IMG/VR virus record: IMGVR_UViG_3300000176_000015
Span: 1-48,431 of that record
DNA: 48,431 nucleotides
Origin: a virus
Reading direction: 5' to 3' (one strand)
The notes beneath the pieces were generated by a model. The model did not search any database, was not told where the DNA came from, and was given only the letters and a program-made list of their open reading frames with translations. Positions within the stretch are counted from its first letter, which is position 1. Every line of letters begins with the position of its first letter. The translations under genes were made by a program, and so were the position numbers. This document shows, one piece after another, positions 3,892-45,427 of this stretch.

Positions 3892-4497
3892 TTATAAAAG
3901 AAAGCCCATTTGTTGCGCAAAATCAATGGGGTGTTTTGCACTTTTTTTGCGATTGCAAGTTGGGCAAAGCAATTGCAAATTTGTTTTGTCGTTTGTTCCA
4001 CCACGCGCCAGTGGCATGATGTGATCTACATGATGTTTTTGTTTTTTTAAACTTGTGTAGCACATTGCGCATAAATTTTTTTGCGCAATAAATAAAAATT
4101 TAATGTCCTCTCCATCATGAGAACCACTTGCATTACGTTTTAACGCTCTGTAGCGATGTCTTGCAGCGGCAATAATTTCGGGATTTTTTTCTCTATATAT
4201 CCGGTTTTTTTCTTTAATTTTCTCTACATTTTTAAAATAATATTTTGCATTGTTCTCGACAATTTTTTTAGGATTTTCAATGCGCCATTTTGCGCTCCAA
4301 TCATTAAATCTTGCAATATTTTTTTTGTTATTTTTTTTCTTTAATGCCAATGCCTTTTCTGGATTTTTTTCCATCCAATTTTTGGCATAGCCAATTTGGC
4401 ATTTTTTGCATTGGTAGCAATAACCATCAAGAGTTCTGTGATTTTTATAGAACTCTTCAAAAGGCTTTAAAGCCTTGCATGTGGAACATGTTTTCAT
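3892..4497 (-). CDS. HNH endonuclease with N-terminal zinc ribbon, AT-rich
   Basis: This 201-aa protein has two CxxC pairs at the N-terminus (MKTCSTC...YQCKKC), a Lys/Asn-rich middle and a C-terminal HNH nuclease domain. The domain carries CAMC, HHVDHIMPLARGG, NLQLLCPTCNRKK. It is a free-standing homing-type endonuclease. The DNA is visibly richer in A/T runs than the flanking helicase and ParB-like genes, which supports recent transfer. It is the first large gene of the leftward early transcript, just downstream of the promoter at 4593-4622, and it interrupts the route from promoter to ParB. Unlike the other homing genes here it does not overlap the next start. Confidence 0.85.
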   Translation of the reverse strand: MKTCSTCKALKPFEEFYKNHRTLDGYCYQCKKCQIGYAKNWMEKNPEKALALKKKNNKKNIARFNDWSAKWRIENPKKIVENNAKYYFKNVEKIKEKNRIYREKNPEIIAAARHRYRALKRNASGSHDGEDIKFLFIAQKNLCAMCYTSLKKQKHHVDHIMPLARGGTNDKTNLQLLCPTCNRKKSAKHPIDFAQQMGFLL

Positions 4498-6162: not shown

Positions 6163-6201
6163 CCACAATCATTGCAAGATCAGCTTCGGCATACCATTGA
6201 T
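6159..6201 (+). pseudogene. Remnant of original exonuclease start
   Basis: ATG 6159-6161 opens a 13-codon frame MTTIIARSASAYH ending in TGA. Its first nine residues equal the first nine of the exonuclease at 6714. The DNA differs at seven of 27 bases, and every change is synonymous. The TGA lies where the intact gene has a TGG Trp codon after His. This looks like the old 5' end, cut off by insertion of the HNH-AP2 gene. Confidence 0.75.
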
Positions 6202-6240
6202 AGGTATACAATGAAGTCTTGTTCATTGAAAGGCAAAGCC

Positions 6241-6717
6241 ATGACGCAACAAGATTTCATCGACAGGTTTGAGTACCAAGACGGCAAATTGTTTTACAAA
6301 AAATCGGAAGGGTGCATGAAGCAAGGCTCCGAAGTTGGTACGGTAGACAAAGGTGGATATTTGAAAACTTTGATTAAACGCAAGCCATATCGTTTGCACA
6401 GAATCATTTTCATGATGCACCACGGATACCTGCCAAAGTTTATTGACCATATTGACGGCGACCCAGCCAACAATCGGATTGAGAACTTGAGGCCAGCAAC
6501 AGCATCCCAAAACAATTTGAATCGCGGGAAACACAAACGAAACACCTCTGGATACAAGGGTGTCACATGGGTAGCAACCGAAGGTCGTTACTCAGCACGG
6601 ATTGCAATTGGCCAAAAACGTCTTTTCCTTGGGTATTTTGAAGACCCTAAAAAAGCACATGAAGCCTACTGCGATGCCGCCCAAAAACATCAACCGCAAT
6701 ATGTGAGAACACAATGA
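6241..6717 (+). CDS. HNH-AP2 homing endonuclease
   Basis: This 158-aa protein starts MTQQDFIDRF, with AAAGGCAAAGCC upstream; an in-frame ATG at 6211 is possible. The HNH core reads LHRIIFMMHHGYLPKFIDHIDG followed by NNRIENLRPATASQNNLN, the classic HNH_3/NUMOD-like layout. The C-terminus is an AP2-type DNA-binding domain (SGYKGVTW...YSARI..LGYF.....AHEAYCDAA). It should cut a site near the exonuclease start and promote its own spread. Its TGA overlaps the regenerated exonuclease ATG, so coupling is preserved. Confidence 0.9.
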   Translation: MTQQDFIDRFEYQDGKLFYKKSEGCMKQGSEVGTVDKGGYLKTLIKRKPYRLHRIIFMMHHGYLPKFIDHIDGDPANNRIENLRPATASQNNLNRGKHKRNTSGYKGVTWVATEGRYSARIAIGQKRLFLGYFEDPKKAHEAYCDAAQKHQPQYVRTQ

Positions 6718-8787: not shown

Positions 8788-9717
8788 TCATGGATTTGCA
8801 AAATATTTTTTGGCGTATGGATAGGCAATTGAACCAGCCTGAAGAGCAGCGCCAAGACCTTCAGTCAAAGGGGTTGGGACGGCCATCATTGCGCCACCTA
8901 AGCCTCCAACAAGTTGGGTCATGTTCTCTTCATTTGCGCCGTGCGAATAAATGTCTTTGCCAGCGTTGTACAAATCGTAAGCACCAAGTCCGCCGCCAAG
9001 CGCACCAATTCCAATTTTGGTCAAACCAGACTTCAATGCTTTTGCGCGTGCTGCATCTTCAATAGCTTTTTGTTCGGCATGTTTAAGCGCAAGTTCTTCC
9101 GCTTCTTTTGCAGCTTTTGCTTTTTCAGCCATCACTTTTTGCTTGGCCGCTTCTCGCAACAAACGATCTTCTTCTTCGCGTGCAAAAGCTACTGGGACTG
9201 CAAGACCATATCGAGTTGTTACCATCGGGCCAGTTTTGACTAATTCACGAGCCGCGCCGGGTTTAGCAAGACTTTCCTCTTGTGCCAAGCGCAAGCGGTT
9301 GCTCTCTTGATTGTGAGTATTTTCAATTTGGCGGCCAGTCAACTGATTTTGACCTCTCATGCTTTGCATCATCTGATCAATTTCAGATTCGGAAGGCTGC
9401 ATAGATGCAGGAGCGGGAGCTGGAGTTGGTGCGGGTGTGCTTGCGCGAGGCGCAGAGAAGACACCTTGGCCGGGTCTAAACATATTGTTCACGGCATTGG
9501 TTCCAACACCTTTGAAGCTGCCGTAAGCGCCCACGGCCGCGCCGCCAGCAGGAATCAATGGCGATGTACCAGATTGGCCTTGAGGGGATGCACTTGGCTG
9601 ATTTGAAGGCGCTGGTGCAGATTCCGCTTCAGAAGGGTTTGGGAGCGATTGAAGATGCGCCAGAATTTCATCGGCGCTTTTCAATCTATCGGAGTTGTCA
9701 TTTAATTCATCAGGCAT
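8788..9717 (-). CDS. Probable DNA ejection / internal virion protein (309 aa)
   Basis: This 309-aa protein has a Pro/Ala/Ser-rich disordered N-terminal third, then a long charged helical segment (about residues 170-235, REEEDRLLREAAKQKV and AKEAEELALKHAEQ). The C-terminus is Gly/Ala-rich (GIGALGGGLGAYDLYN, VGGLGGAMMAVP) and could insert in membrane. This composition and its position as last gene of the late operon, after three similar proteins, fit podoviral ejection proteins that leave the head and form a channel. No enzymatic motif is seen. AAGGAGTAAAAA precedes the start. Confidence 0.6.
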   Translation of the reverse strand: MPDELNDNSDRLKSADEILAHLQSLPNPSEAESAPAPSNQPSASPQGQSGTSPLIPAGGAAVGAYGSFKGVGTNAVNNMFRPGQGVFSAPRASTPAPTPAPAPASMQPSESEIDQMMQSMRGQNQLTGRQIENTHNQESNRLRLAQEESLAKPGAARELVKTGPMVTTRYGLAVPVAFAREEEDRLLREAAKQKVMAEKAKAAKEAEELALKHAEQKAIEDAARAKALKSGLTKIGIGALGGGLGAYDLYNAGKDIYSHGANEENMTQLVGGLGGAMMAVPTPLTEGLGAALQAGSIAYPYAKKYFANP

Positions 9718-9727
9718 TTTTTACTCC

Positions 9728-11332
9728 TTAGTCAGCAAGACGTTTTGCCTTCATCAATTTAGGCTCATACGACTTGATCAAATCCTTGTATGGTTTGCTG
9801 TGAAAGAAAATGGAAATTGGTTTGCCAGCATTTTGAGGGCTGTTGATCCAATCGCCATAAACTTCGTAAAGTTTTTCGTTCTTTTCATTTTCTAACGAGC
9901 GAGTTCCAACCAAGCCCTTCAAAATTCCAAAGGGATCAGAGCCTGTGGCAATTTGATTCATCACAGATGAAAATTCAGCTTGATTCAAATGACCGCCGCC
10001 GATAGAAGCCACGCCTTTTCTCAAATCGTCACTTGCTTCATCTCGCAACAACATTTGGAATTCACGCAATTGTTTTTGCTCTTCTGGTTTCAATTGAGTT
10101 TTTGTCATAGCGTTTTCAACTGGGAATGACAAATTGAAACCAGCGCCACCGCCTGGAGTGCTTATGCTTGCGTGAGCACCTTCCGACAAAGAACTTGTGA
10201 TGGCAGACAAAATGCCCTGATCTTTGTATAGCAATCCCGTGCCTTTTTGAACTCCGGGTGTTGCCAAAAGTTCAGCAAGTCTATTGTGGCGAACATGAGC
10301 AGCAGATGTTGACTGAGGATCAAATTGCATGATCTTTTGTTCAATTGGTGCATAGTTTGCATTCAACTTTTCCAATTGTGTTTTGGTCAATTCATTTGCA
10401 GCAGAACCAGTTGCACCAAGGCTTTCGTATGTTGCCGAAGGTTTTTCTGGTTCTGATTTTTGCCAATGATTTGGGTCTTTATTTGGCATTGGCTGCGAAT
10501 AACCCATAGCCCTCAACATGCCACGTTGTTCAGGCGTAAGGTTTTTAGTATCAACATCAATTGCATTTCCTAATTCATGTTGGCTAGTTCCGGGTGGTGC
10601 AACAGGATTTGGATTGGTTGCTCTGTTAGCATACAACTCAGCTTGTTTTTCTTTATCACGCACCCCACTAATAATTGGCACACCAAGTTGTTGCAATTTA
10701 TATTGCTCATCATTTAAAACTACGCCATTTGGCATGGTGTGCATTTGTGCTTGATGAACATTTTCAAGCGACGGATTCTTTAAAGAAGTGTTTTGCTTCA
10801 ATTGAGCCAGTTCATTTGCCCATTGAGCTTTTGTGATTGCGCCAGATTCATATTGATCATGCAAGACTTGACGAGCTTGCGCTTGTGTGTCCATGCTGGT
10901 TTTCAATTGAGCAGCGGCAGCTTTGGTTGACGGTGCATCTGGTGCAATACGCATCAACTCCTTGACCAACTCGTCATCGACGGGGCCTTTGTGACTTGCC
11001 AATAAATCAGCAGCCTTTTGGTTTTGACCCATTGCAATCTTGGATTGAGCCAACTGTGTGCGCATCTGAGCAATTGGCAACTGAGACTCACGTTGTTTCT
11101 CAATGTTTTCACCCAAAGCATCAGCAGCAGACCCCAAAGAAGCCGTAAAACCTCCCAATTGAGGCTTGGCAAAGCCAGCAGCCACCTTGAACCAGTTGGG
11201 TTGAGCGTAGCGTTGCTCAAGTGCGCTGATTTGCGATTCAAGAGATTTTTGGTACTCTTGAAGATCGGACTCTTCGGCGCCAGCAGGGTTGATCTTTGAG
11301 GGATCAGTAATTAATGTAGGTGCAGTAGCCAT
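9728..11332 (-). CDS. Ejection protein with embedded M15 (VanY-type) peptidoglycan peptidase
   Basis: This 534-aa protein has helical flanks that resemble internal virion proteins. Residues of about 205-292 form an M15 D-Ala-D-Ala peptidase domain: GVRDKEKQAELYANR, then SQHELGNAIDVD giving the S-x-H-x-x-G-x-A-x-D zinc motif (Ser250, His252, Asp259), and a distal HW (His289). All key residues are present. It probably cuts peptide cross-links in host peptidoglycan during genome entry, with the flanking helices forming part of the ejected complex. AAGGAGTAAAGC precedes the start. The enzyme call is strong; the virion location is inferred from neighbours. Confidence 0.78.
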   Translation of the reverse strand: MATAPTLITDPSKINPAGAEESDLQEYQKSLESQISALEQRYAQPNWFKVAAGFAKPQLGGFTASLGSAADALGENIEKQRESQLPIAQMRTQLAQSKIAMGQNQKAADLLASHKGPVDDELVKELMRIAPDAPSTKAAAAQLKTSMDTQAQARQVLHDQYESGAITKAQWANELAQLKQNTSLKNPSLENVHQAQMHTMPNGVVLNDEQYKLQQLGVPIISGVRDKEKQAELYANRATNPNPVAPPGTSQHELGNAIDVDTKNLTPEQRGMLRAMGYSQPMPNKDPNHWQKSEPEKPSATYESLGATGSAANELTKTQLEKLNANYAPIEQKIMQFDPQSTSAAHVRHNRLAELLATPGVQKGTGLLYKDQGILSAITSSLSEGAHASISTPGGGAGFNLSFPVENAMTKTQLKPEEQKQLREFQMLLRDEASDDLRKGVASIGGGHLNQAEFSSVMNQIATGSDPFGILKGLVGTRSLENEKNEKLYEVYGDWINSPQNAGKPISIFFHSKPYKDLIKSYEPKLMKAKRLAD

Positions 11333-11342
11333 GCTTTACTCC

Positions 11343-12521
11343 TTAACCTTCTGGGTCAAAACTATTTTTATCTGGATTCCAAGAGAATGCAGAGTTGGTG
11401 TTTGGATCAATGTACGTACCAGATGCTGGATCGTAGATGTAACCATTATTAGCGGCAGCCGTAGCAGCATCAGTGGTCGGAATGACCGTATCAGGAGCCG
11501 CTGGATTGCTTGGGCTTGCTGGTTGTGGTGTTGAGGCAAACGGATTAAGCGCTTTGACCAAACCAGACAAGCTGGAAATATTCGATCCGACAAGTTGACT
11601 AGCCAAGTTGGTGGTGACTTTATCTGCGCCTGTTCCTGTTGTGATTGGTGAGAACAATCCTTGAACGCCAGATGCAACAGCCGCTGCACCAGACAATGGA
11701 GAAGCGTTCATCGTTGTCTCTGTCGAAGTTGGAACAGTTTGACCTTGCAGCAACCCAGCCACTTTGGACAAGGTGTCCAGTGGGAACAACTGTTGGTTTT
11801 GGGCAATCGTTTGTTGCTGTTGACCCAGCGTAGACAAAGCGTTGATGTCGGACAAACCAAGGTTTTGGTTTTGCGCAGCCAAGTTGCCTTGAGCTTGTCC
11901 AGCCGTTGTGAGGTTTGACTGGCCTGTGCCAGCAGCAGACGCAGCAGTCGAGCCAGCTTGGTTGGCCACTTGGTTTTGCTGAATTGCTGAATTGAGGGCG
12001 TTTTGGTAGCCTGTGTTGAGCAGGTTTGCAATTTGGCTGTTGGTCTGTTGGTTGGCCAGCACATCGGCTTGGCCAATTGCTTGGTTGGCTCGACTTGAGC
12101 CGAACTGACCTGAACCAGTGGCTGCGGCAAGCACAGATGGGTTCAGGTTCATGTTGATGTTGTTTTGATTGATGTCCGACAAGCTCTGAGCCGCAGGCAT
12201 CAAGTAGCTGCTCAGATACTGATTGGCTTCAGCGGCAGGATTTGTGGTTGCTTGACTCAGGTATGGCGAGGCCGCCGCCAAAGGCGATGTAGCGTTTGTG
12301 GCGGAATTGAGCGTGTTTCCAGCGGCTGTCAGCGTGGGTTGATATGCCGATGCCGCACCAGTCACATCTTGGAATGCTTGCTGTTGCAGAGGCTGCGCAC
12401 CAACGTATTGAGCATTTGTGCCAGCGGCTGTGCCTGCGTTAGCAAGGTTGCTCAAATAGTTGGTGTAATACGACGGCGCGTTGGTTGATACAAGTTGTGA
12501 GGACTGGAGCAAATTTGCCAT
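11343..12521 (-). CDS. Probable DNA ejection protein, Gln/Asn/Ala-rich (392 aa)
   Basis: This 392-aa protein begins MANLLQSSQLVSTNAP and is rich in Gln, Asn, Ala and Ser. The segment TGSGQFGSSRANQAIGQADVLANQQ matches the pattern of phage DNA injection and internal core proteins. The C-terminal part is low-complexity (TPQPASPSNPAAPDT), followed by a short NNGYIYDPASGTYIDP motif. It should be packed inside the head or tail lumen and ejected with the DNA. It follows the 641-aa protein by two bases. Confidence 0.65.
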   Translation of the reverse strand: MANLLQSSQLVSTNAPSYYTNYLSNLANAGTAAGTNAQYVGAQPLQQQAFQDVTGAASAYQPTLTAAGNTLNSATNATSPLAAASPYLSQATTNPAAEANQYLSSYLMPAAQSLSDINQNNINMNLNPSVLAAATGSGQFGSSRANQAIGQADVLANQQTNSQIANLLNTGYQNALNSAIQQNQVANQAGSTAASAAGTGQSNLTTAGQAQGNLAAQNQNLGLSDINALSTLGQQQQTIAQNQQLFPLDTLSKVAGLLQGQTVPTSTETTMNASPLSGAAAVASGVQGLFSPITTGTGADKVTTNLASQLVGSNISSLSGLVKALNPFASTPQPASPSNPAAPDTVIPTTDAATAAANNGYIYDPASGTYIDPNTNSAFSWNPDKNSFDPEG

Positions 12522-12523
12522 GA

Positions 12524-14449
12524 TTAACCTTTCATCGCCATCTTGAGGTATTCAAGCGGAGACTTTGCCTTTGCTGGGATTTTAGTGTCTGGAGCCGCTC
12601 TTTTGTGAGCACGGATTTCTTCACGCATCTTGTCGAGCAATTTGGCACCCGCCTTGTTGTCTCCATGGCCAATAGCGGTCACAAAGTTGGCTGGGAATAC
12701 ATATTCCCCGTCGGCGATCTGAGCAGGCACTGGATGGCCTCCTGCGCCTTCGTGATGGGGTACGCTGCGGCGGAAGTGTTCGAGGGCTTGTGCGCCTGCC
12801 TTGCTTGATCCATCGCCCAAGGCAGCCACTAGGTCGGCGTCAGCCACGTAGTCGCCGTCATGGAGCATGGCGGGAATGTCGTCCGATTGACCTGTGCCGC
12901 CGCCATGGGCGTAATAGCCTGTCACGCCCGTGATGAACTCAGGGTGATGACCTTCAGGGGCTGCATCTTCATATTTGTGGATGTCGCCACCATGAGCGCG
13001 GTGAATCATTCCGCTGAGTGGACCTTGCCCCATTTGACGCAATTGCGTCATTGGTGCGGCAGGCTGATGTCCTTGAGGACGCAAAACTTGTGGCTCAGTT
13101 GGTTTGACGAATGCAGGATTCAACATTTTGTTGATCTCAGCCAAACCACCTTCTGCGTATTTTGCATTCGACAAACCAGTGTCAAGCACTGTGTTTGATG
13201 GGTTAACCAAAATGGAAGCCAGCTCAGGCACAAGGGATGAGTAAAGCTGTTTCAATTGATCTGGAGTCAATGCTTGTTCACCGCTTGCTGTGAATTCAGA
13301 AGGGGCATTTGACATTGTGGGGTCTTGATAGCTAAAAGTTCCAGTTTTGTCAGAAGTGGAACTGGAACTTTGTTTGGATGAATTCGATGAAGTTGTGGTG
13401 GGCAAAATTGCATTTGCAAAATTAAGTTTCGGCAAAACAAGATTGTTGGATGTGTCAGTTGGTGCCACATCCGTGCCAAGCACATCTGGATTGTTAATGA
13501 ATGAACTTGGATCGCCAAGATTGGCTGAGGAATCTGGTGTGGTTGTGCCCAGAGCGCCCGTTGTCCCTTGGTCATTGGTAACCGTTGCTCCTTGACCGCC
13601 ACCCATTGAATTGATATTGGCCGAAGTTGATAACGTAGCGCCGCTGTTATCTGTTGGCGTAGCTATGGTCGAAAGACTTGATGATGTGTCTGGAGTTGCC
13701 TGCACACCAAAATTTGATTTAGCACCAGACGTCAGACTTGTGTCCAATGGTGTTGTATCGACATCGGCTGAACTCAATGGACTTGTTGTCAATGAAGCGG
13801 GAATAGTTGCACCGCTTCCAGTGGATGTGTCTGTCTCAGATGGTGCGATCAGATTGGTTGAAGACGAAGTATCTGGGGTTAATTGAACTCCAGGTGTTGT
13901 GTCTTGGCCTGTTGAAAGACTTGTATCTAATGGCGTTGTATCTGGAGTGGCCAAATTTAAAGGAGAGCCGCCAGATGAACTGGTTGAATTCACCAGATTA
14001 CTCAGACTTGAGTTGCCCAAATTGTTGATCGTGGCAGACAAAGCCCCAGTAATTGGGTTTTGGCCAGTCAATGCAGCTTGTGTGGCTCCAGATGCAGCAG
14101 AGCCAGAGAGATTGCTTCCAGTTTCAGCGCTGACACCTGAACCAACTTGTCCTGCCACGTATGACTCGCCAGCACTCAATGCTGCTTGTTCAAGGCTTGC
14201 GCCATGAGCTACTGCATCTGCGGCTGAAATTGCTGGAAGCAACTCAGGCTGACCTGCCGCAACTGCCGCAACTTTAGCCATGGTTCCAATTGGGTCTGCA
14301 ATTGCTGCTTTAACTGTATTGGTTACGGTGTTTGCTACGGGTTTAACAACATTATCAACAATAACCGTTCCAACGTCTGATACAGCATTACCAACGCTAT
14401 GAACTGCACCACCGACAACATCTGAAATGGTATTTACTACGCTGCTCAT
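12524..14449 (-). CDS. Large low-complexity virion / ejection protein with duplicated C-terminal domain
   Basis: This 641-aa protein begins with valine/alanine-rich amphipathic repeats (residues 1-110). Ser/Thr/Asp-rich disorder follows, with two copies of TPLDTSL...GVQ.TPDTSSS, and then an ordered C-terminal third. There, PAMLHDGDYVADADLVAALG and PAQIADGEYVFPANFVTAIG are two copies of one unit, each followed by KAGA..L...R. Short AEGGLAEINKML, RAHGGDIH and YAHGGG elements precede them. Similar units occur in phage virion proteins of unknown role. Location in the ejection block suggests an internal or ejected protein. TAGGAGATTAAG precedes the start. Confidence 0.6.
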   Translation of the reverse strand: MSSVVNTISDVVGGAVHSVGNAVSDVGTVIVDNVVKPVANTVTNTVKAAIADPIGTMAKVAAVAAGQPELLPAISAADAVAHGASLEQAALSAGESYVAGQVGSGVSAETGSNLSGSAASGATQAALTGQNPITGALSATINNLGNSSLSNLVNSTSSSGGSPLNLATPDTTPLDTSLSTGQDTTPGVQLTPDTSSSTNLIAPSETDTSTGSGATIPASLTTSPLSSADVDTTPLDTSLTSGAKSNFGVQATPDTSSSLSTIATPTDNSGATLSTSANINSMGGGQGATVTNDQGTTGALGTTTPDSSANLGDPSSFINNPDVLGTDVAPTDTSNNLVLPKLNFANAILPTTTSSNSSKQSSSSTSDKTGTFSYQDPTMSNAPSEFTASGEQALTPDQLKQLYSSLVPELASILVNPSNTVLDTGLSNAKYAEGGLAEINKMLNPAFVKPTEPQVLRPQGHQPAAPMTQLRQMGQGPLSGMIHRAHGGDIHKYEDAAPEGHHPEFITGVTGYYAHGGGTGQSDDIPAMLHDGDYVADADLVAALGDGSSKAGAQALEHFRRSVPHHEGAGGHPVPAQIADGEYVFPANFVTAIGHGDNKAGAKLLDKMREEIRAHKRAAPDTKIPAKAKSPLEYLKMAMKG

Positions 14450-14450
14450 C

Positions 14451-14885
14451 TTAATCTCCTAAATTCAAAACAATTCGAGTTCCACCATTTGCTGTGTTGT
14501 AGGCTTTGTAGCCCATGCCCGGCATTGGAGGTCTGATTGAAATGATTTTGAATAACTGTTTTAAAGACGGGTCTTGGAATTCAGTGACGAGAACTTTTAA
14601 GCCAAGTAATCTGCGTGCCCAGACACAAAACATTTTGCTGTTTTCTACAAAGTTTGGGCCAGTGTCTGCATTGAATGATTTGAAAAATGCTTGATCGCCA
14701 TGGCCAGTGATCACTTCAAACAAAGTGTTTCCAATTTGTTTTGTCTTGACATTTGGTTGGCTGAGTTCAGTCAAAATTGCAGGCAACATGACTTGCGGAG
14801 GATGTGACTGATCTGTGTTCTTGAGAAAAATTGAGATGATTTGTCCGCTGTTTAACTTTTGTTTCTTTGAATCTACATAATCCAT
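14451..14885 (-). CDS. Conserved phage protein of unknown function after the ketosynthase
   Basis: This 144-aa protein is read from MDYVDSKKQK at 14885, because CGGAGATATGAC places an RBS directly before it. An upstream in-frame ATG would overlap the ketosynthase further and lacks an RBS. Segments SFNADTGPNFVENSKMF, KVLVTEFQDP and SIRPPMPGMGYKAY recall a conserved phage protein found near ejection genes, of unknown fold and possibly acyltransferase-like. It is probably co-translated with the ketosynthase and is a candidate third member of that cassette, but it may also be an independent virion gene. Confidence 0.55.
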   Translation of the reverse strand: MDYVDSKKQKLNSGQIISIFLKNTDQSHPPQVMLPAILTELSQPNVKTKQIGNTLFEVITGHGDQAFFKSFNADTGPNFVENSKMFCVWARRLLGLKVLVTEFQDPSLKQLFKIISIRPPMPGMGYKAYNTANGGTRIVLNLGD

Positions 14886-14886
14886 G

Positions 14887-16002
14887 TCATATCTCCGTTG
14901 ACAGCACCGCTGCCGAATAAACATTGCCCATGCCTGCCGCCAAACTCATGATCAATCCGCTTGGAGCTTGGACGTCGTGAGACAAAAACTTGCTGTCCTC
15001 TTGCGTTCTGTTTTCAATCTTGGGAACAAATCCGTTTGCAAGATCGTCAATGAGCATACAAGTCTCAAGCAAACCACTCACACCCATCGTGTGACCAATT
15101 TTTTGTTTGTAGCTTGTAGCCACATACTCGCTCAAGACATTTTCCAGCGCTGATTTCTCAGACACATTGTTGGATTTTGTGCCAGTGCCATGTGTCTTCA
15201 CAATGCTGACTTGGCTTGCTTTTGCTCTGGCTTTCCATAAAGCGCCTTCCATGGCGTTTCGGAATCCTTGCCCATCTTCTCTTTGACCAATTGCATTGCC
15301 GCAATCTTCGCTGGCCGTATACGCACCCAACAACGCCGCCTTGGGCATCTTGTCGCCCCGCATCGCTACCTTGCCAGATTCAAATACCGCCAGACAAGCA
15401 CCTTGCGCCACATAAAACCCATGGTTTTTGTCATCAAACGCTGATGGCATTATCCCTGTTTGCTCTTCTTTCCACAACAAAGACGCCTGCGCTTCGCCAA
15501 AAAACTCCAGCACTGAATTGCTGACTTGGTCTTCAATCGCCAACACAATCACGCGGTCAAACCCAAAATTCTGTATAAGGTTTTCCACATCCATGAGCAC
15601 TTTCATGCTGCTGGCGCAAGCCGTGGCATCTGTGACAATGTGATCTGTGGCTCCAAACGATTGTGCGGTGCGGCCAGCGAACACCTGAGTCAGCGAAAAA
15701 GGCAAAAATTTGTAATCGTAGGTCAGGCGTGTTGGCTGTGTTTTGCGGGGGTTGATGCCTGCAAAATGAGCATTGCCAGATGCCAAAATAAAAGCAGTCT
15801 TGCCAATTTTGTTTTCACGAATGTTTTTGACCAATTCTGGGTCTAAAACCATCTCAGCCACTTTGTGTGGCGGGTAGGTCATGCCAAGTTTTACGCGGTT
15901 GTAGGTTTCAGGAAACCATTGAACTTTTTGCGGAAAAACAATATCGTCCAGCAAGTCAATTTGGCCGGGCTTGGTGATTCGGTAGTCGGTCAAATAAATC
16001 AT
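14887..16002 (-). CDS. Beta-ketoacyl-ACP synthase (ketosynthase), FabF/KAS-II-like
   Basis: This 371-aa protein starts at ATG 16000-16002, with GGAGCTGATCAA as RBS, and overlaps the ACP stop as ATGA. The thiolase-fold catalytic set is complete: Cys129 in TDATACASSMK, His271 in VKTHGTGTKSNN, Lys299 and His304 in QKIGHTMGVSGLLE, plus the late SLAAGMGN glycine loop. It should condense an acyl group held on Cys129 with a malonyl-type extender on an ACP. At 371 aa it is somewhat shorter than bacterial FabF (about 410). It lies between the tail hub and ejection genes, with its own ACP directly upstream. No ketoreductase, dehydratase or acyltransferase is in the window, so host enzymes would have to supply other steps. 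Confidence 0.85.
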   Translation of the reverse strand: MIYLTDYRITKPGQIDLLDDIVFPQKVQWFPETYNRVKLGMTYPPHKVAEMVLDPELVKNIRENKIGKTAFILASGNAHFAGINPRKTQPTRLTYDYKFLPFSLTQVFAGRTAQSFGATDHIVTDATACASSMKVLMDVENLIQNFGFDRVIVLAIEDQVSNSVLEFFGEAQASLLWKEEQTGIMPSAFDDKNHGFYVAQGACLAVFESGKVAMRGDKMPKAALLGAYTASEDCGNAIGQREDGQGFRNAMEGALWKARAKASQVSIVKTHGTGTKSNNVSEKSALENVLSEYVATSYKQKIGHTMGVSGLLETCMLIDDLANGFVPKIENRTQEDSKFLSHDVQAPSGLIMSLAAGMGNVYSAAVLSTEI

Positions 16003-16280
16003 TTGATCAGCTCCATTGCCCATTCGATTGATTCGCATTCCCGTTTTTTATTGGTTTGCACAAATTCCAACATTGCGGCTGGCGTCGTGGGTACAAAATC
16101 TCTGACAACCGCATCGTCAATGTCGTAAATAATTGCCATGTACATACCAATCATGATCATGTCTAAAGAATCAAAACAAGATTCTTCAAACAGCTCATCC
16201 ATGGTGCTCATCGGAATAAATTCATGATGGGCTGGTCTGGCAACTCGTGCTACTTTGTTCAACAGTTCAAGAAAGTCCAT
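15999..16280 (-). CDS. Acyl carrier protein-like
   Basis: This 93-aa acidic helical protein has the 4'-phosphopantetheine site FDSLDMIMIGMYMAII, with Ser38 in the D-S-L motif. It is placed as in AcpP, at the start of helix II and followed by a hydrophobic helix. Length and charge fit a discrete type II ACP. TAGGAGCACGAC precedes the ATG, and the stop overlaps the ketosynthase start, so both are probably made together. No phosphopantetheinyl transferase is present, so host AcpS or Sfp would have to load it. Confidence 0.75.
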   Translation of the reverse strand: MDFLELLNKVARVARPAHHEFIPMSTMDELFEESCFDSLDMIMIGMYMAIIYDIDDAVVRDFVPTTPAAMLEFVQTNKKRECESIEWAMELIK

Positions 16281-16293
16281 GTCGTGCTCCTAT

Positions 16294-16527
16294 TTATGCT
16301 TGTATCGACATGATACCTATCATGCTCTCAGCCCATTCTTGCCAAGTTGCAAATTGCCTGTGATCAGGTACGCCCGATTGGACAAAGTACCCGATGCCGT
16401 TCATTCCATCGACCCAGTCGCGCCACTTGTCTTCGGTCACATGACCAAGCTGCTGTGGTGCAAATAGCTCTTCCATCAGCTTGCAATACTGATCCCATGT
16501 CATTCCGCGAGGGTCGTATGTAACCAT
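16294..16527 (-). CDS. Small hypothetical protein (77 aa), Trp-rich
   Basis: This 77-aa protein begins MVTYDPRGMTWDQYC and has five Trp in spaced positions (WDQY, WRDWVDG, ATWQEWAESM). Its start overlaps the tail hub stop (TAATG). It resembles small conserved phage proteins between tail and ejection genes. Function unknown; whether it belongs to the ACP/ketosynthase cassette is open. Confidence 0.6.
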   Translation of the reverse strand: MVTYDPRGMTWDQYCKLMEELFAPQQLGHVTEDKWRDWVDGMNGIGYFVQSGVPDHRQFATWQEWAESMIGIMSIQA

Positions 16528-18539
16528 TACGGATTTCCCGTCGAGCGGCTGTCACCAACGTCAAGACTCAAGAGCACTTTGCCCATGAAATAATTTCCGC
16601 CAGTGGTGTTGGAGGTGAAGCGCAAACGCATCTCGCGGCGTTGTTCGCGCATGTCCACCTTCAGCGTGGTGGGGTCAAAGTTGTAAGGGTTTGAAGTGAT
16701 GTCACTGTCGTCGGCGTAGCCCTTACCAGTCACGGTGACGCTCATCGTGCCAGACTGGACAAAGTCAGGTTCAATCCGTTCGCAGCGCGTCCAGACGTTG
16801 TCGCCGGGCTGCTGAACCGCACCCACAAGTCCACCCAGCACGCCGAGCGCGGGGGTTTCAAAATACGAGTTGATGGCCGTGACTTGGTCGGTGTAAATTT
16901 GGTCTGTGCCAATCTCGTGTTGCCACAAGGTGTAGGACTGCGCGGTGGTCAAACTCACCGTCAGGCCAGTGCCAGTTGAGGGCGACCGCGCCGATGTGGT
17001 GTACGTGCCAGATGGAGCCGGGTTGTACGAGCCAGCGGCCACCACGGTCAATCCCGTGACGGCACTGCCAGACACGGTGGTGACTTTGAGCGATGCGGGT
17101 GCACCAGAGTCGCCCAAGACGGTCACAATGTCGCCCACGGCATACGATGCACCGCCGCTGATGATGGTTGCGCCAGTGGCCTCATATCCCGATGCGGTGT
17201 TGCCGCCCCACACGGGGTAGCGGAACACTTCGCTGAATGCCCCTGCCGAGCGCTGCGCACCAAGTGATTGGCCTGCGTCATACCAAGTTTTTTCGCGCAC
17301 GTTGTAGATGATGGCATCCGTGCATTCGGTGGCGTCACCACGGGGGTAGAAGAACCAAATCTCGCCCCAGCGCGGCACTTTGCTTACCCACACCTTTTGG
17401 CGTTGCTGATAGTTCAAATTGTCAAAGAACCAGTTTTGGTTTTGACTATTTGGGACTTCTTGCACCGCGCCGTTGTACATCAAGAAGCGGTCAGTTCCGA
17501 CCCAGTAGTAGATGCCGTCATACTCAATGACGCACTGGCTCGACATGATGGACGACTGTTGCGTCACCAAGTCATAGCGCCAGTAATAAGTCAGGTTGCC
17601 CACAGTCTGCGGCGCGTAGCTCACGCGAATCAACGAGTCCAGCGTCCAAAACAAGCCACTTGGCACTGTTGTGCCGCCGCGCACGGGCAGGCCTTTGACC
17701 ACCTTGGTGGCCGCGACGTTGTTGGAGTTGGCGTCAGAGCTTGTCCAGTTGGTGAAGTCACCTGCTGCGCAGTTTTGGATCAGGCCATTGTTGCCGTACA
17801 CAAAGAGGTACGGGTAAAGCATCACCACGCCACCCGAAACACTGATGTTGTTGTCGAAGGTGAAGGTGTAAGTGCCTGATGCTGTTGCGTTATTGCTCAA
17901 AGTCGCCGTGTAAACGCCGCCCGTGATGATGGCCGACAGCACCGTGGTGTTTGCAGGGATGCCCGTGCCAGTCACCGACACACCCGCGCCCACGCCTAAA
18001 TTGGTCGCTGGGAAGGTCATGGTGGCCGTGCCAGTGGAGATTGTGGCCGAAGCGGTGAAGACGCCCACGGGCGCGAGCGTTGTGCCAGTCAATGGCCCAA
18101 ACAATGGGCGGGTGTTGACCGTGCTTGAGATGTCCGCCAAGTTCTGGCCGGGGTGCGCAATCAAATTCAAATTTGCGCCGCCAGTGGAGTCGTAGCCAAT
18201 GTCTAGCTGCCACAAGTTGTTGGCATTGGCCGTAAACCCACTGGAGAAGGTGTACGCCAGCGGCCCAGTTCCCACGCCAGCATAGTTGGCCGTCACCCAT
18301 TGCTCTAGGCCGTTGGAGTAGCCTGAAATGACGTAGTTTGAGCCGTTGTTGGACTGCATGATCATGCCGCGAGAGATGCCCGAGGCATTCAAGAACATGC
18401 TGTTGTAGCCGCCGATCTTGCGAGGCAAACCATTTTGGAAGCGCACCCACTGGCCGTCCACGTAGGAGGCGGACATGAATCTCGTGCCATCACGTTGGAT
18501 GCCCGGTTTGACTTGGAGTACGGCAACCTTTGCGGTCAT
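16527..18539 (-). CDS. Tail hub / packaged-DNA stabilisation protein, P22 gp10-like
   Basis: This 670-aa protein begins with PGIQRDGTRFMSASYVDGQW and GLPRKIGGY, the start typical of P22 gp10-type stabilisation or tail-hub proteins. Beta-rich repeats follow, including YYWVGTDRFLMYNGAVQEVPN. Two inserted Gly/Thr-rich beta modules lie at about residues 155-230 and 455-530; the first resembles a module in the capsid-associated protein at 34247. It should plug the tail beneath the adaptor and hold packaged DNA. This is the main sign of a podovirus rather than a siphovirus plan. Confidence 0.68.
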   Translation of the reverse strand: MTAKVAVLQVKPGIQRDGTRFMSASYVDGQWVRFQNGLPRKIGGYNSMFLNASGISRGMIMQSNNGSNYVISGYSNGLEQWVTANYAGVGTGPLAYTFSSGFTANANNLWQLDIGYDSTGGANLNLIAHPGQNLADISSTVNTRPLFGPLTGTTLAPVGVFTASATISTGTATMTFPATNLGVGAGVSVTGTGIPANTTVLSAIITGGVYTATLSNNATASGTYTFTFDNNISVSGGVVMLYPYLFVYGNNGLIQNCAAGDFTNWTSSDANSNNVAATKVVKGLPVRGGTTVPSGLFWTLDSLIRVSYAPQTVGNLTYYWRYDLVTQQSSIMSSQCVIEYDGIYYWVGTDRFLMYNGAVQEVPNSQNQNWFFDNLNYQQRQKVWVSKVPRWGEIWFFYPRGDATECTDAIIYNVREKTWYDAGQSLGAQRSAGAFSEVFRYPVWGGNTASGYEATGATIISGGASYAVGDIVTVLGDSGAPASLKVTTVSGSAVTGLTVVAAGSYNPAPSGTYTTSARSPSTGTGLTVSLTTAQSYTLWQHEIGTDQIYTDQVTAINSYFETPALGVLGGLVGAVQQPGDNVWTRCERIEPDFVQSGTMSVTVTGKGYADDSDITSNPYNFDPTTLKVDMREQRREMRLRFTSNTTGGNYFMGKVLLSLDVGDSRSTGNP

Positions 18540-19778
18540 TTAGAAGCCCCCGCCAAGAATTCCGCCCAAAGCCGTGACTTGGTTCTGCACCGTCAGGCCT
18601 GTTGAAGCATTCAATGTCATGCCGTTTGAACCGCCAACAGCAAAGCCGAGCTGCCCACTGGCAACCAAGTAGACGCCCGTCGTAGTATCACCAGAGAAGT
18701 TCAATGACGGTGCAGCAGAAGAGCCATTTGACACAGTTAAAGAAGCCAGCGAAGACGATGCGGCAGTTTGTGCGTTGTAGACGTTTGTGCCATCGCAAAT
18801 CGCAATGATCGTTTGTCCTTGTGGCAGTGTGAGCGTTGTGCCGCCCGATGCCGATGTCTTGAAGGTCAATGTGTACGAGCCAGTCGTTTTGTTTTGCAGC
18901 GAGTACAACTGGACGGTTTGGGGCAAGATCACAAATTGGTTGGACGTCAAAGTGCCAAGATACTCTTGAATCGTATTTGAGGCCTGAGCAGACGTGAGCG
19001 TGGTTGTGCCGCCCGTCACAGTCACTTGCAACTGGGTGTAGAAAAACGTGTTTGAGCGGCCGTAGGCAAAGGTGTTGAATCCCGTGCCGTTGGAGACGAT
19101 CACCAGCGACTCGGTGGGCTGCAATTGAGCGCTTGGGTTGCCATCAATGGTGTCTGTGCCTTGGGGAACCAAGTTCAAGATGCCCGTGCCGTTGTTGCGG
19201 ATCATCACAAACCAGTTGTTGCCCACGCTTGCCGAAGTAGGCATGGTCAGCGTGCCAGCGCCGCCGCCCCACACATAAAACGATGAGCGATCAGACGCCA
19301 AGAAGGTGTACCCAGCCGTCACGTTGTTGACGGTGTAGGACTGATTCAGCGTCGCGCCGATGGCGGTTAGGCCGTACCCAGCCAGCGTGGCCGCATTGGC
19401 AGACGATGTGCCTGAGCCAAACGTCACCACCGCCCACGTACCATTTGTCGTGGTGTTGTCGGTCAAGTAAATGAAGTCAGCCAAGCCAGACGCAATGCTG
19501 GCGATGGTGTTGCCGCTTGTGTCCGTCACCGTGAAAGTGTTGGAGCCAATGTTGCGCACAATGACGTTTTGGCCGCTTGACACTTGCGTGGCTGGCGGCA
19601 TGAACAACTTCAGGCCAGTCGTGGTGGCCGTGACTTCGATGATGTTGGCTGCAACATTTGAGGTGTTGCCATTGATCGGCCATTGCAGCACGGTGTTGCT
19701 ACTGATGGATAAATTCTCGTAACCCACCGTTGATGGGTTGATGGTTAAACCTGTGAAGGCGTCGATGTATGTTGTCAT
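18540..19778 (-). CDS. Fibre-like virion protein (412 aa)
   Basis: This 412-aa protein begins MTTYIDAFTGLTINPSTV. It is built of Thr/Ser/Gly/Asn-rich beta segments such as LFMPPATQVSSGQNVIVRNI and WFVMIRNNGTGILNLVPQG, a pattern common in phage tail spike or fibre proteins. It ends GGILGGGF, like the GGAF and AGF ends of the other two fibre-like proteins. Its start overlaps the GIY-YIG gene stop (ATGA). Receptor or tail-surface role is inferred. Confidence 0.6.
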   Translation of the reverse strand: MTTYIDAFTGLTINPSTVGYENLSISSNTVLQWPINGNTSNVAANIIEVTATTTGLKLFMPPATQVSSGQNVIVRNIGSNTFTVTDTSGNTIASIASGLADFIYLTDNTTTNGTWAVVTFGSGTSSANAATLAGYGLTAIGATLNQSYTVNNVTAGYTFLASDRSSFYVWGGGAGTLTMPTSASVGNNWFVMIRNNGTGILNLVPQGTDTIDGNPSAQLQPTESLVIVSNGTGFNTFAYGRSNTFFYTQLQVTVTGGTTTLTSAQASNTIQEYLGTLTSNQFVILPQTVQLYSLQNKTTGSYTLTFKTSASGGTTLTLPQGQTIIAICDGTNVYNAQTAASSSLASLTVSNGSSAAPSLNFSGDTTTGVYLVASGQLGFAVGGSNGMTLNASTGLTVQNQVTALGGILGGGF

Positions 19779-20332
19779 GCTAATTCCTGCATCAATTTTT
19801 TGGCTTTATTGATTGCTCGCGTTGCTTTTCTTTTTGCAATTGTTTCTGGAGAATCTTTTCTGCCAAGTGAATTTTTGTTTCCTTTTAAAGCTGCGCCAAC
19901 TTTGGCATTGTGCTCCAAAGATTTTGGTTTTCCTAAACCTCTGCTTTTTCCTAAATTGCTTGCAGAAATTTTTGCTTTATGTTCTTCGCTTTTCTTTTTG
20001 CCCTTGCGCATTAAAGAATATTTAATTCTGGTTTCTTCTGATGGATTTAATCCACCTTCTCCGCCATCTGTCATGTTATATCCACAAGGATATTTTGTAT
20101 TGTGCTCAACAATTAAAAGTTGTTCAATTTTGCATGCAGACTCATGATCAAAAGCATTTGCAATATGAGAAAAAGCAAAATTTTCTATCCCATGTTTTTT
20201 AATTGATGCGTGCAAAGCTGGGCAATCGCCAGTTGCCTTGCGATGTTTTGCCCATCTTTGTTTAATATTTGATGTAATACCAACATATTGTTTGGCATTC
20301 ACAAGATTGGTGATTATGTAAATTGCGTACAT
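19775..20332 (-). CDS. GIY-YIG homing endonuclease with NUMOD3-like DNA-binding repeats
   Basis: This 185-aa protein is read from MYAIYIITNLVNAKQYVGIT, which begins just after the adaptor stop. It holds the IYIIT..YVGIT core of the GIY-YIG fold and the conserved Arg in IKQRWAKHR. The catalytic Glu is probably in CKIEQLLI, and the conserved CGYNMTDGGEGG follows. The basic C-terminus has repeated NUMOD3-type motifs (TRIKYSLMRKGKKKSEEHKAKIS and similar). It is a free-standing homing endonuclease whose stop overlaps the next gene start. Confidence 0.88.
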   Translation of the reverse strand: MYAIYIITNLVNAKQYVGITSNIKQRWAKHRKATGDCPALHASIKKHGIENFAFSHIANAFDHESACKIEQLLIVEHNTKYPCGYNMTDGGEGGLNPSEETRIKYSLMRKGKKKSEEHKAKISASNLGKSRGLGKPKSLEHNAKVGAALKGNKNSLGRKDSPETIAKRKATRAINKAKKLMQELA

Positions 20333-20333
20333 A

Positions 20334-20993
20334 TTAACTGTCCACGGCAACGGCTGACCTATCCCCAACTCTTGCGACGTCTTCTGTTTTCAAGGCGTTT
20401 ATCGCCTCTGAATATTTTTGTTGGAAAACGGCTCGATTGTCGTTCTTCAAAAACAACATGGCCTGCAACAGCGTGCCATACAGCATGGCGTTGGGCGCAT
20501 ACTGGGTCAGCCAGTTGGTTTGGTTGACCGAACTCAGCGGCTGGATGCGCTCGTAGTACAAGATTTCGAAGCTGTACGCTTGATCTGGTGTCGGTGCCAA
20601 GTACCAATGCTGGTAGTCCGAGTCGGCATAAAACAGCGGCGTAGAGGTTTGAGTGGCGTTTGGCCAATAATTCTCAAGATACTCCAGCTTGCGCAACAAG
20701 ACGGGCTGTTGTGTGCCATCGGACTTGGTCAAGGTCATGGAGACAGTTTTGCGCCAGCGTGCAGGCTTGGCCAGCACTGGGTTGTTGGCCGACATGGTTG
20801 CCGTGGCAACAGCCATTTGACCTAAGGTTTTGATCTCTTGGGCAATTTCAAACTCAGCCAAAGTGATGAAGGTGGGGATAGCGTTAATGGTCGCTTGATC
20901 ACTGCGCTCCAAATACTGGAGCACCATCGTCGTCAGATTGTCATAGGTCATCGCCCATGACGGAGTTATTGTGGCTGGGGTAACGGTCGCCAT
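20334..20993 (-). CDS. Phage adaptor / head-tail connector protein
   Basis: This 219-aa protein has N-terminal helices (TYDNLTTMVLQYLER and IPTFITLAEFEIAQEI) and a central beta domain (RWRKTVSMTL, LLRKLEYLENYWPN). A helical end follows, with NAMLYGTLLQAMLFLKNDNRA. This order is typical of gp11/gp4-type adaptors that sit under the portal. AAAGGACTCAC precedes the start. A second adaptor-like gene lies at 29566, so which occupies the portal ring is unclear. Confidence 0.65.
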   Translation of the reverse strand: MATVTPATITPSWAMTYDNLTTMVLQYLERSDQATINAIPTFITLAEFEIAQEIKTLGQMAVATATMSANNPVLAKPARWRKTVSMTLTKSDGTQQPVLLRKLEYLENYWPNATQTSTPLFYADSDYQHWYLAPTPDQAYSFEILYYERIQPLSSVNQTNWLTQYAPNAMLYGTLLQAMLFLKNDNRAVFQQKYSEAINALKTEDVARVGDRSAVAVDS

Positions 20994-38458: not shown

Positions 38459-38914
38459 TTAGACAAATGTTTTGAATGACAGTGGGTTGTCGGTGATCCT
38501 AGCGATCAACTCGTGGTCGTTGATAGTCATGAAGAGCACTGGGTCTTCGCCATCTTTGGTGTCAGGTGCAGGTCGATCCCAACGGTCGCCACCCCAACGA
38601 GGCACGCGCACAAAGTCGCCCACCTCTGCCCATGCGCCTTCAGTCCATGGCTGCATGGTGTCGCGGTTTTTGAACGCCAATGGTCCAAGCGCCACGACCT
38701 TGCCGATCATGTTGTTCCACTTCTCGTTCTCTTTTGTCTCGTCAACGATGATGATGCGGCCAGACGTCTTTTTGATTCGACGCAGTTGCACAATCACTCG
38801 ACCGCCAAAGGGTGCTTGCCCCGGCTTGACGTTAGGAAATGCCCATGCCAGTTGATCTGGATCAGGCACGCTATCGTCCCCCTCAATCGTGGGGATCGGG
38901 TCTTTCTCACTCAT
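38459..38914 (-). CDS. GroES-like co-chaperonin
   Basis: This 151-aa protein is read from MSEKDPIPTI, with AAGGAGTGAGT just upstream. FGGRVIVQLRRIKKTSGRIIIVDE, GKVVALGPLAFKN, WAEVGDFVRVP and LFMTINDHELIARI follow the GroES order (strand, mobile-loop region, VxAVGPG-like turn, VGDxV, hxxxxDILAxh). An N-terminal extension of about 40 residues is added. It may help host GroEL fold phage capsid, like T4 gp31 or similar podoviral proteins, which fits its place beside scaffold and capsid. The loop that would contact GroEL has no clear IVL motif, so activity is uncertain. Confidence 0.68.
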   Translation of the reverse strand: MSEKDPIPTIEGDDSVPDPDQLAWAFPNVKPGQAPFGGRVIVQLRRIKKTSGRIIIVDETKENEKWNNMIGKVVALGPLAFKNRDTMQPWTEGAWAEVGDFVRVPRWGGDRWDRPAPDTKDGEDPVLFMTINDHELIARITDNPLSFKTFV

Positions 38915-38955
38915 ACTCACTCCTTTTGACACCATATTGCAGGTGCATCGTTAAA

Positions 38956-44660: not shown

Positions 44661-45427
44661 AGTGGGCGCTCTTCTATTTCAAGGTGATGGGCGTGGGTGA
44701 CTGAGCCACCATTTGCGGCAAGCAAATGAGTTTCGTGCTCTCTTGCTGGATCAAATGCTGCGAATCGTGAACGCATGTGCGAAGGATCAAACGTAACTGC
44801 GGTTTGCATCTCAGGACGATAGACACCTTTGTCGCCACGCTCTCTGTGGCTATTGATGGTGTTGATGTCAAACCGAGACATGCCTTTGTGAGATGCGGAT
44901 TTCAACAACAATGGGATTATGTTTGGTGCGCTTTTTTCACCAGCTCGTTTCTTATTGTCTTCGGCATAGCGAGATGCAGTTCGTGGATGGGTGGTTGAGA
45001 ACACACCTTTCACTACTTTAGTGCGCTCTGGATCAAGTGATTCAATGTCTGGATGATCTGTGCCGTGGAATGTTTCCAAGTCAAAACCCATTGCTTTGGC
45101 TCGGTCTGCCGCCGTGTTGTGCTCATGTAACCCAAGCATTTTGATTGCATTCAATCTTGCTTTTTCATGTGCATCCGCATAAGGATACTGTCCGCCCTTG
45201 TTCATCAGCGCAAGTCGCATGGCGTCGATGTTCCCGCCGTCGGCTTTCTTTGGCATCCAATTGGGATTGGGTTGAATGACTGGCGTGTACTGGCGATCAG
45301 TTTGCCGTGAATACTGAGCGTCCTGCTTGGCTTTTTCAGCAGCTTGCTGGCGAAGTATGTCAAGTTTTGCCGCAATGTCTGGTGGTGGTGTGGCCATGTC
45401 AACCTCAATGGGGGAAATTGCCGTCAT
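44657..45427 (-). CDS. ADP-ribosyltransferase-like (ART-PolyVal type) protein
   Basis: This 256-aa protein has a helical N-terminus with KKADGGNIDAMRLALMNKGG at about residues 60-79. The ART-like core reads ETFHGTDHPDIESLD, VFSTTHPRTASRYAED, YRPEMQTAVTFDPSHMRSRF and AAFDPAREHETHLLAANGG. The HGT near the start, FST strand and RSRFAAFDP ending fit ART domains of polyvalent phage proteins, which modify host proteins with NAD. The catalytic Glu is not certain. Start 45427 (AAGG) or 45397 (GAGG) are both possible. It is coupled to the polyvalent gene that follows. Confidence 0.65.
   Translation of the reverse strand: MTAISPIEVDMATPPPDIAAKLDILRQQAAEKAKQDAQYSRQTDRQYTPVIQPNPNWMPKKADGGNIDAMRLALMNKGGQYPYADAHEKARLNAIKMLGLHEHNTAADRAKAMGFDLETFHGTDHPDIESLDPERTKVVKGVFSTTHPRTASRYAEDNKKRAGEKSAPNIIPLLLKSASHKGMSRFDINTINSHRERGDKGVYRPEMQTAVTFDPSHMRSRFAAFDPAREHETHLLAANGGSVTHAHHLEIEERPL

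Follow-up and report, generated by a model that had tools for sequence, protein, structure and literature searches.

Genes for acyl carrier proteins (ACP) and ketosynthases (KS) have been described in phages. Rhodobacteraceae prophages carry a fabG-acpP-fabF set, which has a host-like operon order with FabG and is not described as a cassette of the ejection module (PMC8224337). A pelagimyophage carries fabF (PMC7029224). In both cases, the genes resemble those of the locus described here in being a phage-borne ketosynthase, and the prophage set also includes an ACP.

Toxin-activating acyltransferases of the RtxC/HlyC type have a GNAT fold that lacks the CoA-binding elements and work with acyl-ACP. 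The absence of these elements is the reason given for the use of acyl-ACP, and not acyl-CoA, by the GNAT-like ApxIC and HlyC, and the lysines that HlyC-type enzymes acylate belong to a toxin that inserts into membranes (PMC8339906). According to its database entry, PDB 8zt4 is a solved complex between a GNAT and a carrier protein, SbzI/SbzG.

The passage of the internal proteins of short-tailed phages through host membranes is an open question. In phage P22, gene 14 (gp14, DUF2824) separates the hub/needle genes from gene 7, the first of the ejection genes 7, 20, and 16, and there is no ACP or KS at that slot. In the phage DNA analyzed here, the matching position is taken by the GNAT-fold gene of a block of ACP, KS, and GNAT-fold genes. 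The enzyme folds are known ones, and it is their arrangement and location for which no earlier description was found: in the open-access literature (subscription papers fell outside the search), neither a phage ACP-ketosynthase of this kind nor an ACP-KS-GNAT unit in a virion module is described. One earlier annotation exists, in Caudoviricetes sp. ctpbd312 (MW202545, from Manatee Spring), where the KS is named 3-oxoacyl-ACP synthase and the ACP and GNAT-fold protein are "hypothetical." What might pass for a stray "metabolic" gene, with a single annotation to its name and elsewhere classed as unknown, is part of a conserved three-gene unit found in hundreds of phage contigs.

The gene block and its neighbors

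The window is the whole 48,431-nucleotide stretch of viral DNA in IMG/VR record IMGVR_UViG_3300000176_000015. Its major capsid protein shares 96% identity with the MW202545 protein and 78% with those of the Caulobacter phages RW, GB2A, RLK, and KcrB. The three genes of the putative acyl cassette lie on the minus strand in the order ACP (15999-16280), KS (14887-16002), and GNAT-fold protein (14451-14885). Upstream are a 670-amino acid tail hub or "phage stabilization" type structural protein (16527-18539, minus; phrog_3287, E 8e-27; 71% identical to its MW202545 counterpart) and a small Trp-rich protein of 77 amino acids (16294-16527, minus), whose homologue GP067 has the same place in Caulobacter phage RW.

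Downstream are four large genes of ejection type, the last three putative, all on the minus strand. The first (12524-14449) encodes a large internal virion protein of 641 amino acids that has a weak tape-measure-type match and a homologue, GP066, in phage RW. The second (11343-12521; 392 amino acids) is putatively assigned by position and by synteny with MW202545 and RW. The third (9728-11332; 534 amino acids) has a VanY-like, murein-hydrolase-type peptidase region (PF02557, E 1.2e-6), and the MW202545 counterpart of the fourth (8788-9717; 309 amino acids) is annotated as a transglycosylase SLT. This order of neighbors bears out the sequence-only reading of the DNA, which had placed the pair in a late module between hub and ejection genes. 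None of the four ejection-type proteins has a 19-residue window with a mean hydropathy above about 1.2, so they contain no obvious membrane helix. An acyl group added to them could matter. As a separate observation, the C-terminal part of ejection-type protein 1 has two DG(D/E)YV...A.G.G..KAGA repeats, and GP066 of phage RW has one.

MW202545 has the same ACP-KS-GNAT block at the same place, with a KS 66% identical to that of the window. In Caulobacter phage RW, the small protein is followed directly by the first ejection gene, with no ACP, KS, or GNAT gene between them, and no KS or ACP was found anywhere in the RW record.

The acyl carrier protein

The first gene of the block encodes 93 amino acids and has AGGAG ahead of its ATG. 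The stop codon and the KS start overlap as ATGA. Taken singly, the ACP of the window is too diverged for a Pfam PP-binding match and has none; 4 of 18 family members match PP-binding weakly. A profile of 18 relatives searched against the PDB returned ACPs in nearly all top rows, with a best E of 4e-4. The AlphaFold2 (AF2) model (pLDDT 92.9), built like that of the GNAT-fold protein from an alignment restricted to window and IMG/VR sequences, is a helical ACP fold in which the helix at 38-51 (helix II) begins with Ser38. Structural matches of the model are ACPs or other carrier proteins with Z of 7.0-8.7 over about 70-77 residues, values that are weak by themselves for small helical bundles, so the sequence profile carries the assignment. 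Ser38, in DSLD, is invariant, and all 117 distinct ACPs have the Ser motif. By predicted fold and family profile, the gene is assigned to the ACPs, in line with the earlier claim of a discrete ACP with Ser38 in DSLD and with the HMM search and structure prediction proposed along with it.

The phage ACP has a conserved C-terminal tail (window 15999-16050, minus), encoded directly ahead of the KS start and overlapping it. K78 and S84 are invariant in it among 18 relatives, and an extra short helix is predicted at 85-91. We know of no such conserved extra tail in ordinary ACPs. ACP acts as an assembly or folding partner in respiratory complex I, and a comparable role can be drawn for the phage pair, in which ACP, acylated or not, and KS would be partners in the assembly or folding of the ejection proteins and would form no pathway. 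The tail, the location of the cassette, and the altered C-terminal motif of the KS (below) fit this structural use. We nevertheless hold it to be highly unlikely, as the catalytic Cys, both His, and Lys are kept across all distinct full-length KS, and a purely structural role needs none of them.

The ketosynthase

The KS-type enzyme has 371 amino acids. Its longest open reading frame begins at 16038, and homologues favor the ATG at 16002. Both ketoacyl synthase domains of Pfam score above the curated cut-off of 20.8 bits (Ketoacyl-synt_C, 57.9 bits; N-terminal ketoacyl-synt, 31.5 bits), which answers the HMM search proposed for 14887-16002. The closest PDB relatives are KAS II enzymes (2e-20). 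Cys129, His271, Lys299, and His304, the residues claimed from the sequence, were found at those positions and align with Cys164, His304, Lys336, and His341 of E. coli FabF (numbering with Met1). All four are invariant in the first 8 homologues. Among 120 distinct full-length KS open reading frames, the Cys motif is present in every one, HGTGT in 119 (HGTVT in the other), and KxxIGHTMG in 118, the remaining two having (I/L)GHTL with the Lys and His kept. Pfam domains and catalytic residues place the protein, at the level of sequence, in the beta-ketoacyl synthase superfamily.

Though the domains and the aligned Cys-His-His and Lys residues are those of FabF and FabB, the phage KS differs from these enzymes in several ways. 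Its N-terminal part is shorter than in FabF. The C-terminal GFGGTN motif with the gating Phe is absent from the aligned phage KS, which have LAAGMGN instead, and the chemistry may therefore differ from that of FabF. Moreover, the phage KS has its own ACP in the same operon and no other fatty acid synthesis genes with it.

Origin of the ketosynthase and the missing partners

In a quick tree, the phage KS cluster together on a long stem (SH-aLRT 99), outside FabF, FabB, and polyketide synthase (PKS) KS, with long-branch warnings that leave the exact root unsure. With that caveat, the comparison with FabB, FabF, and PKS proposed by the sequence-only reading yields a separate clade outside FabF/FabB. 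A scan of genome contigs with two peptide patterns gave one close homologue, in a Balneolaceae metagenome-assembled genome (MAG), and that contig is itself a phage contig with terminase, portal, and major head genes. Matches on plasmids are FabF, about 28% identical. The KS also matches phrog_35856 (E 4e-36), a family of unknown function for which no partner is described. Recent acquisition of the KS from a host was rejected as the simple explanation: the one close homologue given by the two-pattern scan is from a phage, and the tree separates the phage KS from the sampled FabF, FabB, and PKS rows. The phage KS appears to be a long-standing, virus-specific family and not a recent acquisition of FabF or FabB; genes for a carrier protein and a ketosynthase can have a long history in viruses.

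A more distant, 300-amino acid phage-type KS was observed in a Sulfurospirillum MAG contig (L094, 7722-8624), where it adjoins a 498-amino acid internal-protein-like gene, lysis genes, and tail genes. This short KS also falls inside the phage group in the tree and matches phrog_35856. An ACP was not detected beside it, and no KS of this short type was found in IMG/VR.

Searches of 16 long related phage records, which may be incomplete, detected the controls and gave no AcpS-type phosphopantetheinyl transferase (PPTase), short-chain dehydrogenase/reductase of the FabG type, or malonyl transferase (FabD). The window has no PPTase match. The host would then supply the pantetheine, the malonyl groups, and any reduction.

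These observations bear on auxiliary metabolism, in which ACP and KS would enter host fatty acid synthesis and redirect or prolong its chains. The changed membrane lipids would serve lysis, entry exclusion, or energy, and the GNAT-fold gene would be unrelated. The suggestions of the sequence-only reading that the pair draws off host fatty acid synthesis or modifies the host membrane are open rivals of this kind. Intact KS catalytic residues and the fabF and acpP genes of other phages (PMC8224337, PMC7029224) are compatible with it. It is nonetheless unlikely: the ACP is a dedicated one, the KS belongs to a virus-specific clade far from host FabF/FabB, no other fatty acid synthesis gene was found in the related phage records, and the fixed site is the ejection module and not a set of early metabolic genes.

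The GNAT-fold protein

The gene after the KS encodes 144 amino acids and stands just before the ejection genes. No convincing Pfam match was found in any of 20 relatives, and no sequence match in the PDB. The AF2 model (pLDDT 94.6) has the strand and helix order of GNAT. All 50 VIA-align 2 rows for the model are GNAT, the best with a Z of 12.0 at 2.5 A over 125 residues, and Foldseek returned GNAT enzymes throughout. The product of 14451-14885 is therefore predicted to have a GNAT fold, and the fold alone does not establish acyl transfer. The earlier reading had seen no modifying enzymes at the locus, a statement that fails at the level of fold. Its suggestion that a virion protein is acylated fits better as a result, because the gene adjoining the KS is a GNAT-fold gene.

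From strand 4 to helix 3, the place of the CoA pyrophosphate loop, the Q/RxxGxG/A pattern is missing in all 103 distinct open reading frames of the family; the conserved residues of this region are N72, D74, and N78. The protein is for this reason called GNAT-fold here and not an acetyl-CoA-using GNAT. No His column is fully conserved, the best being present in 14 of 20 members. Membership in the toxin-activating acyltransferases was rejected on the missing catalytic His. Like RtxC/HlyC, the phage family pairs a predicted GNAT fold with the lack of a CoA-binding element; unlike them, it has no conserved catalytic His, shows no sequence relation that could be found, and comes with its own ACP and KS. 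The GNAT-fold protein may thus resemble HlyC-type enzymes in logic and not in membership.

KS enzymes give 3-oxoacyl thioesters directly, and the pairing of an ACP with a GNAT-fold protein is also what a small-molecule pathway might use. The GNAT-fold protein would then join an acyl or beta-ketoacyl thioester from KS and ACP to an amine or amino acid, as FeeM or LuxI do, and yield a signal or a membrane-active lipid. We give this little credence. The site is a virion gene block, no exporter or regulator was seen, and the 20 members of the GNAT-fold family have no Pfam match to FeeM/LuxI-type enzymes.

The GNAT-fold gene lies in the slot of P22 gene 14. No Pfam DUF2824 match was found in 20 family members, hhalign gave a probability of 0.1% for the family against P22 gp14/DUF2824, and the BFVD fold matches of the model include one phage protein with DUF2824 (TM 0.59, E 4e-3). 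Candidate sequence links to P22 gp14 and to the GNAT of phage CRP-901 were dismissed, as none was found.

Conservation, gain, and loss

A scan of IMG/VR with two patterns and a profile confirmed 528 KS relatives, of which the best 80 were returned. The ACP and KS genes overlap in 79 of these 80, mostly as ATGA; in the last, the contig sample cuts off the ACP. The coupling claimed for the window is thus common in its relatives. In the fetched contigs, all 233 ACP hits lie directly before a KS, and in 229 cases a KS lies directly before a GNAT-fold gene (overlapping samples of the same contigs are counted in both figures), with most of the other KS having no downstream sequence. The ACP-KS order is conserved in more than 100 contigs. 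Median pairwise dN/dS is 0.076 for KS and 0.097 for ACP. Both genes are functional and under strong purifying selection. A decayed or inactive pair is ruled out by these ratios and by the catalytic residues kept.

In three lineages, namely L113, L139, and L121/L122, the GNAT-fold gene stands with neither an ACP nor an intact KS. As the L113 contig is short and L139 incomplete, a copy of ACP and KS elsewhere in those genomes is possible. In the third, a 35-codon KS stub precedes the GNAT-fold gene (L121, 1664-1792, E 1.5e-10; L122, 5868-5996, E 6e-10). Its local score is 101, whereas 1000 shuffles reached no more than 38, and a Phe occupies the position of His304. The pair was lost from this lineage. 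The sequence-only reading would have been overturned by frames decayed or unrelated in homologous phages, and this lineage is the exception to a pattern of intact genes almost everywhere. Placed on a tree of the GNAT-fold family, presence and absence of ACP-KS requires three changes. ACP and KS therefore enter or leave the locus together, and the GNAT-fold gene can persist in their absence. The pattern of absence is therefore evidence for a linked ACP-KS pair and against a strict dependence of the GNAT-fold gene on it, which may leave room for use of a host ACP or for a non-enzymatic role of the GNAT-fold protein.

The same absences, including the lineage with the stub, could mean that the neighbors are unlinked, the GNAT-fold protein being an old morphogenesis factor in the P22 gp14 position and ACP-KS an accessory pair that was inserted there and serves a separate purpose late in infection. 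The position of P22 gene 14 next to gene 7 and that of the CRP-901 GNAT gene close to the CRP-901 ejection genes agree with this. Wherever it is found in the lineage, however, the ACP-KS pair is inserted at one junction, and the CoA loop is missing from the GNAT-fold protein, as it might be from an enzyme that uses ACP. We regard unlinked neighbors as quite unlikely.

Proposed acylation pathway

Tentatively, we favor a reading in which the phage ACP carries an acyl or beta-ketoacyl chain made by the KS, and the GNAT-fold protein hands this chain on, most probably to one of the ejection proteins or another protein of the virion. We infer every enzymatic step, the hand-over from ACP to the GNAT-fold protein, and the target. 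Host AcpS would place phosphopantetheine on Ser38 of the phage ACP, which would be loaded with host malonyl and acyl groups. The phage KS would condense these groups on the phage ACP into a beta-ketoacyl chain, with or without later reduction by host FabG, FabZ, and FabI. Lacking the CoA pyrophosphate loop, the GNAT-fold protein would take the chain from the ACP and pass it to a protein, most likely an ejection protein encoded next to the GNAT-fold gene. Acylation might help that protein to assemble or to insert into the host membrane.

This acylation reading is favored by the fixed ACP-KS-GNAT order, the gene overlap, the catalytic residues, dN/dS below 0.1, the predicted folds, and the absent CoA loop. 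The block also lies immediately upstream of internal-protein genes, one of which has the murein-hydrolase-type region. Precedents are the use of acyl-ACP by the GNAT-like ApxIC/HlyC group and the GNAT-carrier complex of 8zt4. It is weakened by the persistence of the GNAT-fold gene without ACP-KS in three lineages, by the lack of a conserved His like the catalytic His of HlyC, by Caulobacter phage RW, which has none of the three genes at the site, and by the loss of GFGGTN from the KS. Of the earlier interpretation, the intact and coupled ACP and complete KS, the late module, and the strong selection stand; the absence of modifying enzymes does not.

In its fullest form, the proposal is a virus-specific acyl-protein modification, in which the virus brings its own ACP and KS, a GNAT-fold enzyme without the CoA loop acylates an ejection or virion protein, and DNA delivery depends on this virus-built lipid modification. 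This form is possible and slightly more doubtful. The observations suggest that a widespread group of freshwater phages builds a fatty-type group and attaches it while particles assemble or enter the host. If true, virus-built acylation of internal proteins would be a new answer to how these proteins pass host membranes, and one within reach of standard mass spectrometry.

Other features of the window

Beside the terminase gene, 44657-45427 (minus) has a weak match, below the cut-off, to the ADP-ribosyltransferase of polyvalent proteins (PF18760, E 0.003). A GIY-YIG-like homing-type endonuclease gene lies beside the tail genes (19775-20368, minus), and three HNH homing-type endonuclease genes lie in the early region (908-1414, minus; 3892-4497, minus; 6172-6717, plus). 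The head gene block includes a gene for a GroES-like (Cpn10) protein (38459-38935, minus); MW202545, RW, CRP-901, HTVC023P, and DSL-LC04 likewise have genes annotated as GroES-like.
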